Shown here in pieces: positions 22,965 to 29,264 of a DNA stretch of 29,264 nucleotides (position 1 is its first letter; every line of letters begins with the position of its first letter). The notes beneath the pieces were generated by a model. That model did not search any database. It was not told the origin of the DNA and saw only the letters and a program-made list of their open reading frames with translations. The position numbers were made by a program, and so were the translations under genes. Source of the stretch: a virus. The stretch is taken from positions 1 to 29,264 of the IMG/VR virus record IMGVR_UViG_3300025128_000223; one strand, written 5' to 3'.

Positions 22965-23022
22965 AACCAAACAGTTCTTTTATCAACTCCAAAATCGCTC
23001 GTATTATCCCCAATGCACTCAT
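22822..23022 (-). CDS. Small amphipathic/coiled-coil protein overlapping lipoprotein gene
   Basis: A 66-residue protein: an N-terminal amphipathic helix (SALGIIRAILELIKELFGYG), a charged helix (KKVEKKKLEELVDARRRDK) and an acidic tail. Its ATG overlaps the terminase stop (ATGA). The lipoprotein gene starts within it in a different frame. By position it could be the inner-membrane half of a spanin pair, but the N-terminal helix contains Arg, Glu and Lys, unlike a standard transmembrane anchor. Because its codons are shared with the lipoprotein, composition is constrained. Function uncertain. Confidence 0.55.
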   Translation of the reverse strand: MSALGIIRAILELIKELFGYGKKVEKKKLEELVDARRRDKLDWVRDRMSDNGAPEAGRDEADNPGE

Positions 23023-24473
23023 CCCGTATTTAACCCCATCGACTCCCGCAGCTTCGCATCGCCACTCCAGTCAGTCATACCCGCTGCCAGCACTTCATTC
23101 AAGTCCGGTTGATTCATTCGCGCCCAGGCCGGGTGATCGCTGACACTCGCCAAACACATCACCAACGCATCCCCACGGTCAGGCGAACTGAACCCACGCG
23201 CCTTCATCTCTTTCTTGCTCTCCAGGTTGAGTTTGCCGGTCTTTGATGTCCCGACCCGCCGAGTAGTCAACTGACTGTGTAAAATCTCGTCACCGGGCAG
23301 TATGGCTTCCATACGGTCGATCTGGCGGGCTGCGCGGAACCACATCTCCGTTCCCCGGTTCTGGTACCGATCCGGTTCCTGCGCTCGTCCGCCCAGGTTC
23401 ACTTGATGAATCGGCCAACCCATCTCACCCAACTGATGACACATCGGTAACCCCAACCCACCCGCATCCCCGAATATCTGCTCAGGTTTCAACCCGGCTT
23501 TCTCGAACTCCAACGCAAACCTCGCACAACCGGCCATCGTGTTCGCCTCGCGCCAGGCGACTAGCTTGGTGACTTTGTTCCCGATCCGCATACAAAACAC
23601 ACTCTCATCCCCGGCAGCCGCAAAGTCGCACGCCGCCACCATCTCCTGGCCGTCTTTCGTTGGGGGATTGTCCAAACATTGCATCAAACTCTCCCACGGT
23701 ATCACCAAACCTTCGCCGCTCGTCTCCTGGAACGCTCCGTAGATCATCGACTGGATCAACGGATGTTCGCGCCCCCACATCTCGACCTGTTCGTCGATCC
23801 AGCTTTGCTTGATGTGCGGACACTCGAATGCGGTTACCGTGTGTAATTGCCACCATTTCTGCTCTTTAGAGAAAATCTTATAAAACTTCCCCGTGGTTCC
23901 ACCGGGCGAACTCATCGCCAGGATTCGATTGGGCTGAATACGCGCCACCGCCTCAAATAAATCCTCCTGAATCGACTTACACTCGTCCAGAATTATGAAA
24001 ACATTGCCGTGAAAGCCTTCAAACCTACCGGGTTGATCGGTCGCAAATCCCAAGATTCTCGACCCGTTGTCCATCGTCAGGTCGGTCTGGTTGATCTGCA
24101 TACCGAGTCCCGCCACTTTACTCGCTAACGCCCGGATCTGAGGCCAAAGCTGTTCTTTGACCTGGCGATAGACGCCACTCGTTGTGATGACAATACTCCC
24201 CGGATAGATCAACGCATACCACAACGCCGCTGGCGCCGCTATCATCGCAGTCTTGCCACTACCGTTCGCCGCCTTCAACGCCACCCGCGCACCGGGTTTG
24301 CTCAGATCCAACAGAACTTTCTTCTGCCAGTCGTAAAGTTTTAACCCAAAATATTTCTCAGTAAATACATCGCAGTCCGCGTCTCTTGAGGAGACTCGGG
24401 TCTTGGTTTTCGACCCAACAGGTTCTTCGGATTGTCTTGGTTTCGCGCTCGTCTTTGTTTTTGTTTTGCCCAT
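23019..24473 (-). CDS. terL: Terminase large subunit
   Basis: A 484-residue packaging ATPase-nuclease. A Lys/Thr-rich N-terminus is followed by Walker A AANGSGKT (68-75) and Walker B VFIILDE (158-164), then SSPGGTTGKFYKIF resembling the coupling motif. The C-terminal nuclease domain starts at MVAACDFAAAGDESVF, with FGDAGGLGLPMCHQLG and a final DRGDALVM supplying further acidic residues. It cuts concatemers and pumps DNA through the portal. The ATG at 24473 is chosen because GAGG lies 9 nt upstream; a GTG two codons earlier is too close to it. It overlaps the preceding nuclease gene by 116 bp. Confidence 0.95.
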   Translation of the reverse strand: MGKTKTKTSAKPRQSEEPVGSKTKTRVSSRDADCDVFTEKYFGLKLYDWQKKVLLDLSKPGARVALKAANGSGKTAMIAAPAALWYALIYPGSIVITTSGVYRQVKEQLWPQIRALASKVAGLGMQINQTDLTMDNGSRILGFATDQPGRFEGFHGNVFIILDECKSIQEDLFEAVARIQPNRILAMSSPGGTTGKFYKIFSKEQKWWQLHTVTAFECPHIKQSWIDEQVEMWGREHPLIQSMIYGAFQETSGEGLVIPWESLMQCLDNPPTKDGQEMVAACDFAAAGDESVFCMRIGNKVTKLVAWREANTMAGCARFALEFEKAGLKPEQIFGDAGGLGLPMCHQLGEMGWPIHQVNLGGRAQEPDRYQNRGTEMWFRAARQIDRMEAILPGDEILHSQLTTRRVGTSKTGKLNLESKKEMKARGFSSPDRGDALVMCLASVSDHPAWARMNQPDLNEVLAAGMTDWSGDAKLRESMGLNTG

Positions 24474-24816
24474 AATCACTCACCTCAAACTTTCTAATAA
24501 AATCTCCCACCTCATTCGTAATCTTGTACCCCGCCACCACCTCACTCTTCGGGTGGTACGAAAATAAATAAAACGGACACCGGAAAGATTTACTCGCCCA
24601 CCGCCCGGCTTCCATCTTGTTCCACCCCACCATCTCTTTCGGATGGAAACCCAACGGACACTCCCGACTCTTAATCTCCGCCACCGCCTTCACAACACCG
24701 TTCCTCACAAATAACCCGTCCAACTCACTGTACTTGTCGTTCGTATAAACCCAACTGTCGCCGGGATGATTCTCCAAAATTATGTCCACACATTGCTGTT
24801 CCAATCGGTCGATCAT
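24358..24816 (-). CDS. PD-(D/E)XK-type nuclease-like protein
   Basis: A 152-residue protein. D33 (SELDGLF), then VVKAVAEIKSR with E47 and K49, forms the D-x(13)-E-x-K active-site pattern of PD-(D/E)XK nucleases (RecB/VRR-like fold). A following WNKMEAGRWASKSFRCPFYLFSY fits a helix-strand continuation of the fold. The start overlaps the methyltransferase stop (ATGA) and its last 116 bp overlap the terminase start, so the three genes are translated as a set. Likely a small DNA endonuclease or exonuclease; substrate and role (packaging aid, host DNA degradation, recombination) are unknown. Confidence 0.72.
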   Translation of the reverse strand: MIDRLEQQCVDIILENHPGDSWVYTNDKYSELDGLFVRNGVVKAVAEIKSRECPLGFHPKEMVGWNKMEAGRWASKSFRCPFYLFSYHPKSEVVAGYKITNEVGDFIRKFEVSDYGQNKNKDERETKTIRRTCWVENQDPSLLKRRGLRCIY

Positions 24817-25583
24817 TTGGTGAACAGAAAGTCAGACGCTTTTACCGGTAGCTGGGTGGTTTGCAGTTGCCTCCCCAACTCCTCCCAAACCGGTTGTTGT
24901 CCCATCCCGAACTCCGCCAACTTCTCCCGATGCGCCGCCGCAAATGCGCCTTCGCCCCGCACAAAAGCCATGAACTGGGTGATGTCGGTTTCCCGCCACA
25001 AATTGTCGCCGCCCCCAACCCGCCTCATGCCGCCCATCCCCCACATCCAAGCCATCTCCACCACACTGTACGTCCTGTAACCACCCCACAACTTGCCCAT
25101 CTGCGCCAATCCGTACTGCTGCAACAAGTCAGGATCGTTTACCGCACACAAGTCTTTCACATAAATCATCCCCCCCGGATTCAACAACCCCACACACTTT
25201 TCAATCAACCTCCCCGGTTCCTCGAAATATCCGAAACTCTCACAAAAGATCAACCGATCAAATCGCCTCCCACGATCATCCCACTCCATGAAATCCGCCA
25301 ACTCCAAACTCAACTCCGCCAACTCGACCTGACGCTTGCTAATCGTCACACCCGTCACATCCTCCACACCGTTGGCCATCAACCCGCTCATCACTCCGCC
25401 CAACCCACACCCCACATCCAACACACTGTGCCCCGGTAAAATAATCCCGCGCCCCATCACTACATGAGCGAAGTCTTTCGGTTCTTTCGCAAACAATGCC
25501 GTCTGCATCAATGGGCCATACTCGCGCCCCCATAACTCGGAGAACTCGTCATAATACTCCGCCGTTGTCATTTTTAATTCCAT
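24813..25583 (-). CDS. Class I SAM-dependent methyltransferase
   Basis: A 256-residue protein with motif I VLDVGCGLGG (54-63), the post-I region DVTGVTISKRQVELAE (75-90), motif II-like FDRLIFCESFGYFEEPGRL and motif III-like LLNPGGMIYVKDL. The combination DVTGVTISxxQ is characteristic of small-molecule or lipid methyltransferases of the cyclopropane fatty-acid synthase / methyltransferase type 11 group rather than DNA methylases; no DNA-methylase (D/N/S)PP(Y/F) motif is present. The substrate is unknown. It sits among inserted genes between terminase subunits. The start at 25583 overlaps the previous stop by 10 bp; an ATG four codons later is an alternative. Confidence 0.85.
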   Translation of the reverse strand: MELKMTTAEYYDEFSELWGREYGPLMQTALFAKEPKDFAHVVMGRGIILPGHSVLDVGCGLGGVMSGLMANGVEDVTGVTISKRQVELAELSLELADFMEWDDRGRRFDRLIFCESFGYFEEPGRLIEKCVGLLNPGGMIYVKDLCAVNDPDLLQQYGLAQMGKLWGGYRTYSVVEMAWMWGMGGMRRVGGGDNLWRETDITQFMAFVRGEGAFAAAHREKLAEFGMGQQPVWEELGRQLQTTQLPVKASDFLFTK

Positions 25584-25813
25584 TTGTTTTTCTTCTTCCG
25601 ATTTGCCGCCAGGACGCGCTCCCGGTCATCGATGTACTCCTGCAACCGTCCCGCCTGTAAAACCGCCTGAGCGTGATCCTGGTGGTCGTAAAGCGTCTCA
25701 TACGGAAACAACCCGCCCCGGTTCAACCGGGTACCGGCAGGCGAATCTCCCGCCACCGACCTCACCCAGATCCGCCACCGTCCATCGTCTCCACACCTAG
25801 CGTATGCCGTCAT
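25574..25813 (-). CDS. Hypothetical protein
   Basis: A 79-residue protein begun at the ATG at 25813, which overlaps the stop of the 19-residue micro-ORF as TGATG; a GTG seven codons earlier is the alternative start. The sequence MTAYARCGDDGRWRIWVRSV is strand-like, then a helix (DHAQAVLQAGRLQEYIDDRER) and a basic tail (NRKKKNKWN). No family is recognised. Codon phase and overlaps with both neighbours support a real gene in the terminase cargo block. Confidence 0.6.
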   Translation of the reverse strand: MTAYARCGDDGRWRIWVRSVAGDSPAGTRLNRGGLFPYETLYDHQDHAQAVLQAGRLQEYIDDRERVLAANRKKKNKWN

Positions 25814-25872
25814 CACCAAAACCAAACCATGCACTCATCGTCGTAGTCCTCCGGTAAAATGTCGTACCCCAT
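25813..25872 (-). CDS. 19-residue micro-ORF between CoiA-like gene and next gene
   Basis: The frame MGYDILPEDYDDECMVWFW starts at an ATG overlapping the CoiA-like stop (TAATG) and ends at a TGA overlapping the next ATG (TGATG). It occupies the whole inter-gene interval exactly. It is acidic with a Trp/Phe end. It could be a leader or coupling peptide carrying ribosomes to the next gene, or chance. No known peptide is recognised. Confidence 0.4.
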   Translation of the reverse strand: MGYDILPEDYDDECMVWFW

Positions 25873-26519
25873 TAGTCTGTCCAACCGTCTGGAAGATTCA
25901 CCGCATCAACGCATAACTCGGAATCCCACCCAGACGGTGCGTACCGACTAATAAACGAACTCCGATTAACCCACGTTCCCCATCCGCCACACGGTATTTT
26001 GTCATAAAGTTTTTTAATCTGGAACAACCTCGAATATCCGTAATCCAAATATATCGGTTGACCCGACCACCACCACGATTTTCGAGGAGTCTTCCACCTG
26101 AATGAATCGTACTTGCCTCTGTCCCGATGATCGATGTTCCGCTTGAATCCACTCGCGTCCAATACCCAAACCATCTGCCGCTGAACGTGCTGACGGGTAT
26201 AAAACGATTCCCGCTCAAGTATGTCATCCGCACTAATCGATGAATGCTGGAACTCGATCACCCCGGCATCTGTCATCACATCCGCCCGATGACAACCGAC
26301 CACAACCTCCCGACACTCTTTCGGGAATTCGAGCTTCCAGTCCAAATGCCAGTCGGTCTCCGGTTCCGACCATGAATCGCAATCACGGTTCCGATGCGCC
26401 CAATGCCACCGGTTGATCATCCCGCACTTCGCTATCACCTCATCACCGCAACCCGGACACACCGCACGTTCGTTGGGCGAAGCGGCGACCCGGTCGTTAT
26501 CGTTCATCGCCAATGTCAT
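25872..26519 (-). CDS. CoiA-like nuclease-domain protein
   Basis: A 215-residue protein with the CoiA-type layout: a zinc-finger-like N-terminus (C21-P-G-C24, then WHWAHR at 38-43), S-E-x-E-T-D-W-H58 and K62, then C-H-R-A-D80-V and V-I-E89-F-Q91-H-S-S-I-S, and a helix RESFYTRQHVQRQMVWVLD. D80 and E89-x-Q91 match the PD-(D/E)XK-derived core with Gln at the Lys position seen in CoiA-like proteins. CoiA is linked to DNA uptake/recombination in competent bacteria; phage copies are uncharacterised. Its ATG overlaps the stop of the small terminase candidate (ATGA). A second ATG at 26507 is possible. Confidence 0.75.
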   Translation of the reverse strand: MTLAMNDNDRVAASPNERAVCPGCGDEVIAKCGMINRWHWAHRNRDCDSWSEPETDWHLDWKLEFPKECREVVVGCHRADVMTDAGVIEFQHSSISADDILERESFYTRQHVQRQMVWVLDASGFKRNIDHRDRGKYDSFRWKTPRKSWWWSGQPIYLDYGYSRLFQIKKLYDKIPCGGWGTWVNRSSFISRYAPSGWDSELCVDAVNLPDGWTD

Positions 26520-27716: not shown

Positions 27717-28022
27717 TCAAATTATCGTCCATTCGTAACCGTCCCACTCCATGTCCCGCGCATCGACACGCCAATGATTGTGCCACTTTTCCGCCTCCTC
27801 GATGACACGATCATCAACGGTGTACGTTGGTTGATCGCGGGCACTAAACGCTTTGCTTTTGCTGAGTCGATCCAGAAGTTCCTCGCCCCACCAAGATTTT
27901 CGTAGCCCGCCGGGTAACAATTTGCGCTTCCACTTCCACGCTGACCTGTCGGGTTTCCGATACTTCGACTTCTCGAATGTTTGGTATTCAAGATTCATCC
28001 ACCTAACCTCTCCCCCCGTCAT
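27717..28022 (-). CDS. Hypothetical protein
   Basis: A 101-residue protein begun at the ATG at 28022 (AGGA 5 nt upstream), overlapping the preceding gene by 20 bp; an ATG at 27998 after that gene's TAG is an alternative. It is basic in the middle (SAWKWKRKLLPGGLRKSWWGEEL), with a Trp-rich acidic C-terminus (EEAEKWHNHW, DMEWDGYEWTII). No domain recognised. Confidence 0.55.
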   Translation of the reverse strand: MTGGEVRWMNLEYQTFEKSKYRKPDRSAWKWKRKLLPGGLRKSWWGEELLDRLSKSKAFSARDQPTYTVDDRVIEEAEKWHNHWRVDARDMEWDGYEWTII

Positions 28023-28398
28023 GCGTTTCCTGAGCCTCTACGGTACCGTCACGCGATTCTTTTTCGTTTCGGGTGTCAGTACACCCCAGTATATCTTTAA
28101 ACGCCTCATGCGCTAAATTATAGAGTTCCTCCCAACGCTCATCGCTAACCCGCTCTCGGAACACCACGCCTGGTCGTTCTTTCGCTCGCAGCGGTAGCGG
28201 ATTCTCGATACCGGCGGCGAGTTGGCGAACGTGGTTCTCCATCTTCACCAAATCCCGGTACTCTTTCCGGTCACTCGGTTTGACCGTGTTTCCCGCCACA
28301 TCGTAAACACCTCGCTCCTCGATCTGCGCCATCTGTTCCCGGATCACGGTGAGTTGATTCTTGAGCGCAAACGCTTCCTGTGAGGTGAGAACTTTCAT
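28003..28398 (-). CDS. Hypothetical helical protein downstream of the iteron region
   Basis: A 131-residue protein, mostly helical (SQEAFALKNQLTVIREQMAQ; EYRDLVKMENHVRQLAAGI), with a central RPGVVFRERVSDERWEELYN and a polar tail. The start at 28398 has GGGG about 8 nt upstream. It is the first gene downstream of the 94-bp repeat/dyad region, so it is the one most likely controlled by it. No family recognised. Confidence 0.58.
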   Translation of the reverse strand: MKVLTSQEAFALKNQLTVIREQMAQIEERGVYDVAGNTVKPSDRKEYRDLVKMENHVRQLAAGIENPLPLRAKERPGVVFRERVSDERWEELYNLAHEAFKDILGCTDTRNEKESRDGTVEAQETHDGGRG

Positions 28399-28409
28399 GA
28401 TCTTACCCC

Positions 28410-28503
28410 ATACGATAATCGATAGTCGTATTACCGATACTCGTAGGAGTTATTATAAGTTTATAATTACTCTTACGGTATACCGATACTCGTATTATCG
28501 TAT
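28410..28503. other. 94-bp symmetric array of iterons and inverted repeats (origin or operator candidate)
   Basis: An AT-rich non-coding region between the DnaA-IV-like gene and the 131-residue gene. The outer arms ATACGATAAT (28410-28419) and ATTATCGTAT (28494-28503) are a perfect 10-bp inverted repeat. Three copies of CGATA(G/C)TCGTA lie at 28420-28430, 28435-28445 and 28484-28494. The centre (28442-28477) is a near-palindrome of 17 bp per arm with two mismatched pairs around GT, containing TATAAT on both strands. Symmetry centres of the outer and inner dyads differ by only 3 bp. It may be a replication origin, a promoter-operator, or both. No consensus DnaA box (TTATCCACA) is present. Confidence 0.75.
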
Positions 28504-28583
28504 AGTTACGTTCTGAATGCATTTAAGTCGTTGGGGTTAAGTGATTAGCTACGGGAGTTTTATTTTTTTTCTGCAAATTAACG

Positions 28584-28961
28584 TTAACAACCGTCTTTCC
28601 GTTGGATGTAGTTTTTAGAGAAAAATGCGAACCGTCTGAACTGCTTATCGTAGGCCGGTTTCTGCTCCCGGAGATCGGTCACCAATTCAACCGCATGGTG
28701 AACTGTGCCGTGGTCTCGATCCCACCAATCAGCGATGAACTGAAGCGTGTAACCAGCGTCTCTGGCGATGAACATGCAACACGCTCTCGGCCAGACCAGG
28801 TCGTTGGTGCGAACCTTCGACCTGAGTTCCTCCATCGACTTGTCGAAGAAGTCGGTCGCCGCCTCAGCGAGTAGTCGCAATCGTCGGCTGGAACCTGGCG
28901 GGTTGTCCTGCCATTGCGAGAGTCCGTTTTTCTTTTTTCCGTTTTTTAGTTTAGCTTCCAT
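28584..28961 (-). CDS. DnaA domain IV-like DNA-binding protein (no AAA+ domain)
   Basis: A 125-residue protein from the ATG at 28961 (an upstream GTG frame is possible). Residues about 50-115 match DnaA domain IV: WPRACCMFIARDAGYTLQFIADWW, then DRDHGTVHHAVELVTDLR, equivalent to the signature helix-turn-helix DHTTVLHA of DnaA. Domains I-III (Walker A/B AAA+) are missing, so it cannot be a standard initiator by itself. Phages carry such stand-alone domains; roles in origin recognition, helicase recruitment or transcription are possible. It lies directly upstream of the iteron/dyad region. Its stop overlaps a TTAACGTTAA palindrome. Confidence 0.8.
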   Translation of the reverse strand: MEAKLKNGKKKNGLSQWQDNPPGSSRRLRLLAEAATDFFDKSMEELRSKVRTNDLVWPRACCMFIARDAGYTLQFIADWWDRDHGTVHHAVELVTDLREQKPAYDKQFRRFAFFSKNYIQRKDGC

Positions 28962-29176
28962 AATTCCAATGCATCGGCGACTGAGTCGGAGTTTCGGTGT
29001 CTGCACTTAACGACCAACCACTCAATGTTTCCTCGTTCTAGATCAACAATCATGTTGCGGATGATCCACGTTTCGTCCTTCACGCGATTAGACCCAATTC
29101 GGCATGGGTGACTGAACGGAACCGCGCCCAGTCTTATCGCTTCTTTCTCAGATATCGCTTCGTCTTGCAGGCTCAT
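28946..29176 (-). CDS. Small hypothetical protein
   Basis: A 76-residue protein, start taken at the ATG at 29176 (MSLQDEAISEKEAIRLGAVP); an in-frame ATG at 29203 adds nine basic residues. It has a mixed alpha/beta pattern (WIIRNMIVDLERGNIEWLVVKCRHR) ending in VADALELWKLN. It overlaps the following DnaA-IV-like gene by 16 bp and the preceding partial gene by 29 bp. No family recognised. Confidence 0.55.
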   Translation of the reverse strand: MSLQDEAISEKEAIRLGAVPFSHPCRIGSNRVKDETWIIRNMIVDLERGNIEWLVVKCRHRNSDSVADALELWKLN

Positions 29177-29264
29177 ATTTCTTTTCTTCACGCCACAACG
29201 CATTCGCCGCCTGGAATAACCGCCAACCCCGTTGGAGTTCTGGCGGTGACCAAATCTTCTCGGC
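29148..29264 (-). CDS. Hypothetical protein, C-terminal 38 residues (enters at right edge)
   Basis: A frame open from the right edge to TGA at 29148-29150 encodes a helical, charged end (WSPPELQRGWRLFQAANALW, then EEKKYEPARRSDI). The absence of stops, the helix-like composition and overlap with the next gene's start suit a real upstream gene, but only 38 residues are visible. Confidence 0.45.
   Translation of the reverse strand, partial: AEKIWSPPELQRGWRLFQAANALWREEKKYEPARRSDI

Follow-up and report, generated by a model that had tools for sequence, protein, structure and literature searches.

A Stand-Alone DnaA Domain IV Gene beside an Unstable, Exchangeable DNA Patch in a Phage Family: A Possible Unwinding Element

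Genome Context

A gene encoding a stand-alone DnaA domain IV protein (DnaA-IV) was found next to an array of repeats and dyads in a 29-kb linear virus record (hereafter the window, i.e., the whole stretch of DNA analyzed). Among related phages, the sequence of this array is not conserved and can differ between near-identical flanks, though its low duplex stability is kept. We tentatively favour the reading that the locus is part of a phage replication origin, in which the array would be the unwinding element. The origin-like layout of a DnaA-IV gene beside an array, which had been noticed in a first-pass annotation, is supported. The genes named here are located on the minus strand of the window, and the features of the locus are as follows:

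28949–29203, minus strand: up85, gene of a conserved 85-aa protein upstream of DnaA-IV, present in all relatives
28584–28961, minus strand: stand-alone DnaA domain IV gene (PF08299); likely ATG start at 28961, as the alignment of relatives starts at the same Met; the ORF is open to a GTG at 29006
28508–28584, minus strand: upstream block of fixed length, ungapped in relatives, with the 20-nt core AAAACTCCCGTAGCTAATCA; possible DnaA-IV target or small-gene relic
28399–28507, minus strand: array, an unstable, dyad-symmetric, swappable cassette (lowest stability, swapping between near-identical flanks); proposed strand-opening element
28403–28522, minus strand: small ORF of 39 codons through the whole array, ending 4 nt ahead of g131 (stops avoided in this frame only, ten array types compared)
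28003–28398, minus strand: g131, which opens the downstream packaging/structural operon and is conserved in relatives

In the direction of the genes, the order is the 85-aa protein, DnaA-IV, the gap with the array, g131, two small genes, terS, a CoiA-like gene, a methyltransferase, a nuclease, terL, portal, capsid and tail genes. Neither up85 nor g131 matched a family in Pfam or NCBIfam; the up85 model had a pLDDT of 86, yet no PDB fold match was obtained at E ≤ 0.001. The CoiA-like protein (25872–26519, minus strand, between terS and terL) contains a competence-protein zinc finger and a nuclease-like domain. The GC skew of the window is strongest (−0.26 to −0.43) at 23000–26000, in the terL/methyltransferase region, and raised skew was also observed in relatives, a few kb downstream of the array.

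The TerL of the window is 84–99% identical to those of many virus contigs in a public collection and at most 36% identical to those of the closest isolated phages (of Akkermansia). A host search by alignment of TerL with genome contigs gave a sole match, in a Dehalococcoidia MAG, whose TerL is 30% identical. No similar DNA was found in isolated phages or plasmids.

The DnaA Domain IV Protein

DnaA-IV matched PF08299 with E = 1.4e-10 and 41.5 bits, above the curated cut-off of 31.5, and it also matched solved DnaA DNA-binding domains by sequence. The top matches of its modelled fold were likewise DnaA DNA-binding domains (3pvp and 1j1v). Judged by sequence and modelled fold, it is a DnaA domain IV protein, and the earlier description of the gene as encoding only this domain holds. 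The ORF of 125–140 aa matched domain IV only and has no AAA+ domain III, i.e., it does not correspond to a full DnaA initiator. In sequence alignments, DnaA-IV retains an Arg and a His aligned with the DNA-contacting ones of DnaA, and the recognition-helix threonine of DnaA is replaced by Gly, Ala or Ser. The residue roles of DnaA follow PMC9638019 and general background.

DnaA-IV matches in named phage records were weak and were set aside. The one examined, the public record CAKLQH020000026.1 (L223, "Acinetobacter phage MD-2021a"), contains bacterial chromosome with a full dnaA beside dnaN-recF-gyrB and thus seems to be mislabelled.

More distant stand-alone DnaA-IV genes were found in virus contigs of other phages, at the following positions:

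L259, 7001–7300: directly after DnaB helicase, overlapping its end
L260, 6574–6873: directly after DnaB helicase, overlapping its end
L262, 6998–7294: near DNA polymerase A and a DUF3987 ATPase

A further such gene, in L261, is also near a DUF3987 ATPase. The only distant protein compared with that of the window, from L258 (same contig as L259), showed 38% identity over 86 residues. In the relative G001, DnaA-IV is the last gene of a module that also encodes a methylase, a resolvase, an exonuclease and a protein judged SSB-like by inspection alone; none of the scanned G001 genes was identified as a phage helicase, primase or polymerase. The linkage to DnaB, DUF3987 ATPase or polymerase A, together with the G001 module, supports a replication role of DnaA-IV and, in combination with the kept instability described below, an unwinding element. 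No gap comparable to that of the window was found behind the helicase-linked genes.

Repeats and Dyads of the Array

The repeats described in the first-pass annotation, namely three copies of CGATA(G/C)TCGTA, a perfect outer inverted repeat (28410–28419/28494–28503; 10 nt, 100% complementary) and an inner near-palindrome (28442–28458/28461–28477; 17 nt, 88% complementary), were all recovered:

28420–28430, plus strand: repeat copy 1, CGATAGTCGTA (motif search)
28435–28445, plus strand: repeat copy 2, CGATACTCGTA (motif search)
28484–28494, plus strand: repeat copy 3, CGATACTCGTA (motif search)
28442–28477, no strand assigned: inner inverted repeat around an AT-rich centre (repeat search and DNA fold)

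Exact CGATASTCGTA is absent elsewhere in the window; one inverted copy with two mismatches was found at 28411. The repeats had been said not to be DnaA boxes and, in agreement with this, the gap contains none. The single-strand fold of the window array had z = −3.1 against dinucleotide shuffles. A scan against Rfam gave only a sub-threshold chance match, and a search for tRNA and tmRNA gave none. Neither sigma-70 promoters nor terminators were found, the sigma-70 consensus possibly not being the promoter type of the host. Of the loci retrieved, only the window phage, its near-identical sister L026 and L117 have the three-copy array. Four copies of TACCGATACTCGTA in L027 were rejected as an array, since the repeat lies inside an open protein frame.

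Exchange of the Array among Relatives

The order of DnaA-IV, gap and g131 is kept in 40 related phage loci and the repeat word is not, contrary to what would be expected of repeats that follow the DnaA-IV gene. In addition to CGATASTCGTA of the window (type C), the words include AAGCTTATAAGC (L119, L220 and L239, type K), TACGTTATACG (L121), TAATAGTAATAG (L154) and TATAGC (L159), and others exist too. In the phages L061 and L119, the DnaA-IV proteins are 96% identical, with an identical stretch from the helix-turn-helix to the C-terminus, and the upstream block and g131 are 99% and 94% identical, whereas the arrays show 42% identity (32% for a shuffled array). Such near-identical flanks around differing arrays indicate, at the sequence level, that the array behaves as a swappable cassette whose letters are not read by DnaA-IV. 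In L118 and L239, the block is 100% identical and g131 is 95% identical, with only 50% identity of the array and 55% of DnaA-IV. Type K is carried by three separate contigs, which makes a single assembly error unlikely. No K-type-specific residues were seen in g131 (judged by eye). As a separate observation, L239 and L220 differ from L118 and L119 by the replacement of the DnaA-IV gene with an approximately 50% identical allele between well-conserved flanks; DnaA-IV and the array thus both look like exchange hot spots.

The first-pass annotation had proposed that the repeats are iterons or an operator specifically bound by DnaA-IV, with a recognition code of their own. Adjacency, three direct copies and the dyad in the window phage speak for this model. 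However, L061 and L119 have different repeat words with near-identical DnaA-IV proteins and an identical helix-turn-helix, and L118 and L239 have different words with an identical block. These comparisons do not support the repeats as the recognition code of DnaA-IV, and we regard the iteron/operator model as extremely improbable.

Duplex Stability and the Upstream Block

In nearest-neighbour energy calculations, the minimum of duplex stability falls in the array region for segments of 50, 100 and 150 bp, both in the window and in three 35–38-kb relatives. With 80-bp segments, the minimum is at the array in 39 of 40 contigs, a count in which close relatives are entered separately and many contigs are short. 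The locally lowest stability expected of an origin with an unwinding element is therefore kept in relatives; it is not specific to origins, since AT-rich gaps are expected of promoters too. The longest AT-only run was unexceptional in most arrays. Dyad symmetry was found in most array types, not all, and its centre often lies 46–56 nt into the array. Fold z-scores under −2 were obtained on both strands for many arrays, but not for those of L140, L143, L170, L243 and L248.

The 20-nt core of the upstream block is invariant in 8 close relatives. The identity of the block is 0.86 within the clade and 0.71 over 13 relatives, compared with 0.83 and 0.70 for g131 synonymous sites, and the idea of an exceptional nucleotide constraint on the block was dropped for this reason. 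In one clade, the coding sequence of a small protein begins within the block (CKKxKKLHSVLTEDQxLRC, then a hydrophobic stretch), and in the clade of the window this frame (frame 1 of the block) is broken by two stops. In view of this relic frame and of the conservation level, a binding role of the block can only be put forward conditionally. In L156, L159, L252–L256 and L176, an intact small ORF in another frame overlaps the DnaA-IV stop; it combines the CKKxKKLHSVLTEDQxLRC sequence with a hydrophobic stretch built from repeat words (AIVAIVAI) and possibly encodes a small membrane protein.

A Small ORF through the Array

The array had been described as the only sizeable non-coding gap. A sizeable gap is indeed located there, but its non-coding nature is doubtful because a 39-codon minus-strand ORF (28522 to 28403) spans the array. 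In nearly all relatives, a minus-strand ORF starting from ATG (GTG in one clade) enters or crosses the array. This frame contains fewer stops than shuffles over ten array types (Fisher p = 0.001, approximate as the types are partly dependent), and the values for the five other frames are 0.21–1. In the exceptional L156, the frame stops after two codons. The ATG is lost in L118 and L239, where an upstream in-frame TTG could serve as the start. Neither the array letters nor the peptide are conserved. Given the quick change of the peptide, the act of translation, or coupling to g131, seems more important than the peptide made.

Discussion

In the reading that we propose, DnaA-IV would bind the origin and be encoded by the last gene of the SSB-like/exonuclease/resolvase module, and the AT-rich, mostly dyad-symmetric array that follows it would serve for strand opening (as a DNA unwinding element). 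The array would act via low duplex stability and hairpin potential rather than via its letters, in which case drift or exchange of its sequence would require no change of DnaA-IV. If DnaA-IV has its target at this locus, the candidate would be the block of fixed length that precedes the array, and not the repeats. Transcription and translation of the array, as the small ORF coupled to g131, are also probable. The DnaA domain IV fold, the instability kept without sequence conservation and the lack of co-variation between array and DnaA-IV all count for the origin reading. Against it count the missing gap behind the helicase-linked genes, the frame-specific stop avoidance, which an origin does not explain, the conservation of the block at no more than the level of g131 synonymous sites and the arrays without significant folding. 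A GC-skew turn at the site had also been suggested as a sign to look for; no change of sign was found in three relatives. Since phages whose genes all lie on the same strand often show no skew turn, the unchanged skew is weak evidence against an origin.

The strongest rival of the origin reading is control of the late operon, which we consider a serious though doubtful possibility. DnaA-IV would then be a GafY/GafA-like activator, the block its late promoter or target, and the array a translated, hairpin-forming 5′ leader ORF coupled to g131, ahead of terS-terL-portal-capsid. DnaA-IV immediately precedes the packaging/structural operon, and the reading frame across the array is preserved and, in the clade of the window, terminates close to g131. 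There are also precedents for the activation of packaging clusters by proteins of the DnaA-IV type: direct activation of such a cluster was described for GafY, a DnaA-domain-IV protein (PMC9632790, PMC11150451), and GafA binds just upstream of terS via its DnaA-like domain (PMC9638019). However, the sigma-70 scan found no promoter even though the position fits (the consensus may not be that of the host), no GafZ/DUF6456-like partner was found among the neighbours using Pfam and NCBIfam, and the relatives of DnaA-IV elsewhere sit with replication genes. In either case, the patch is more likely a strand-opening site or a late-gene leader than the binding-site set of the DnaA-like protein.

An un- or weakly selected spacer, i.e., a decayed small gene and a quasi-palindromic stretch changing by slippage, template switching and recombination, with one frame open only for coupling to g131, is in our opinion unlikely. 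The small-gene remains in the block (intact in one clade, interrupted in that of the window), its neutral-like conservation and the unconserved letters and peptide of the array would fit; the instability kept in 39 of 40 contigs and the repeated occurrence of dyads of differing sequence, often in a comparable place, argue against it. The position upstream of terS in the packaging operon and the tyrosine integrase of relatives suggested a packaging (cos/pac) or integration (attP) site. This is very improbable, as contigs of many phages run through the array, which is internal and not terminal in three contigs of 35–38 kb, and terS is ~1.1 kb away and, in G001, the integrase ~5 kb away.

The origin reading can be extended to a DnaA consisting of domain IV only that directs the opening of an adjacent, mostly dyad-symmetric patch without conserved letters, with cassettes swapped under the same protein and the patch serving both as an unwinding element and as the frame of a fast-changing small peptide. 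In this full form, it would be a rather improbable combination. L061 and L119, with one DnaA-IV protein and different patches, and L118 and L239, with the same block and a different DnaA-IV and patch, amount to natural experiments in which the effect of sequence recognition on origin (or late-leader) function can be told apart from that of duplex stability. The locus also marks a phage family in which a DnaA fragment lies where a minimal replication module meets the packaging genes.

Comparison with Known Systems

The array is similar to the DNA unwinding elements of origins in bacteria, plasmids and phages (the oriC DUE and the lambda ori inside gene O) in being the least stable, AT-rich stretch beside a gene of an initiator-type DNA-binding protein, and its function would likewise rest on instability. 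The lambda ori overlaps the reading frame of gene O, as the array overlaps the small ORF. Unlike these elements, the patch is swapped as a cassette, no initiator boxes were identified, the adjacent DnaA-IV does not contain the AAA+ domain of DnaA and origin activity is only proposed here. Iteron origins and operator arrays also combine repeated words and dyad symmetry with the gene of a DNA-binding protein, but the repeat word of this locus does not follow the protein across relatives. With GafY/GafA of gene transfer agents, the locus shares a DnaA-domain-IV-type protein just upstream of a packaging/structural cluster, the regulation here being putative. In contrast to GafY/GafA, no DUF6456/GafZ partner or fused C-terminal domain was matched in the neighbours, NCBIfam PRK06030 models scored far below the cut-off, and the phage encoding DnaA-IV also has integrase and recombination genes. 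By analogy with these systems, the locus may resemble an origin or a Gaf-type system in action.
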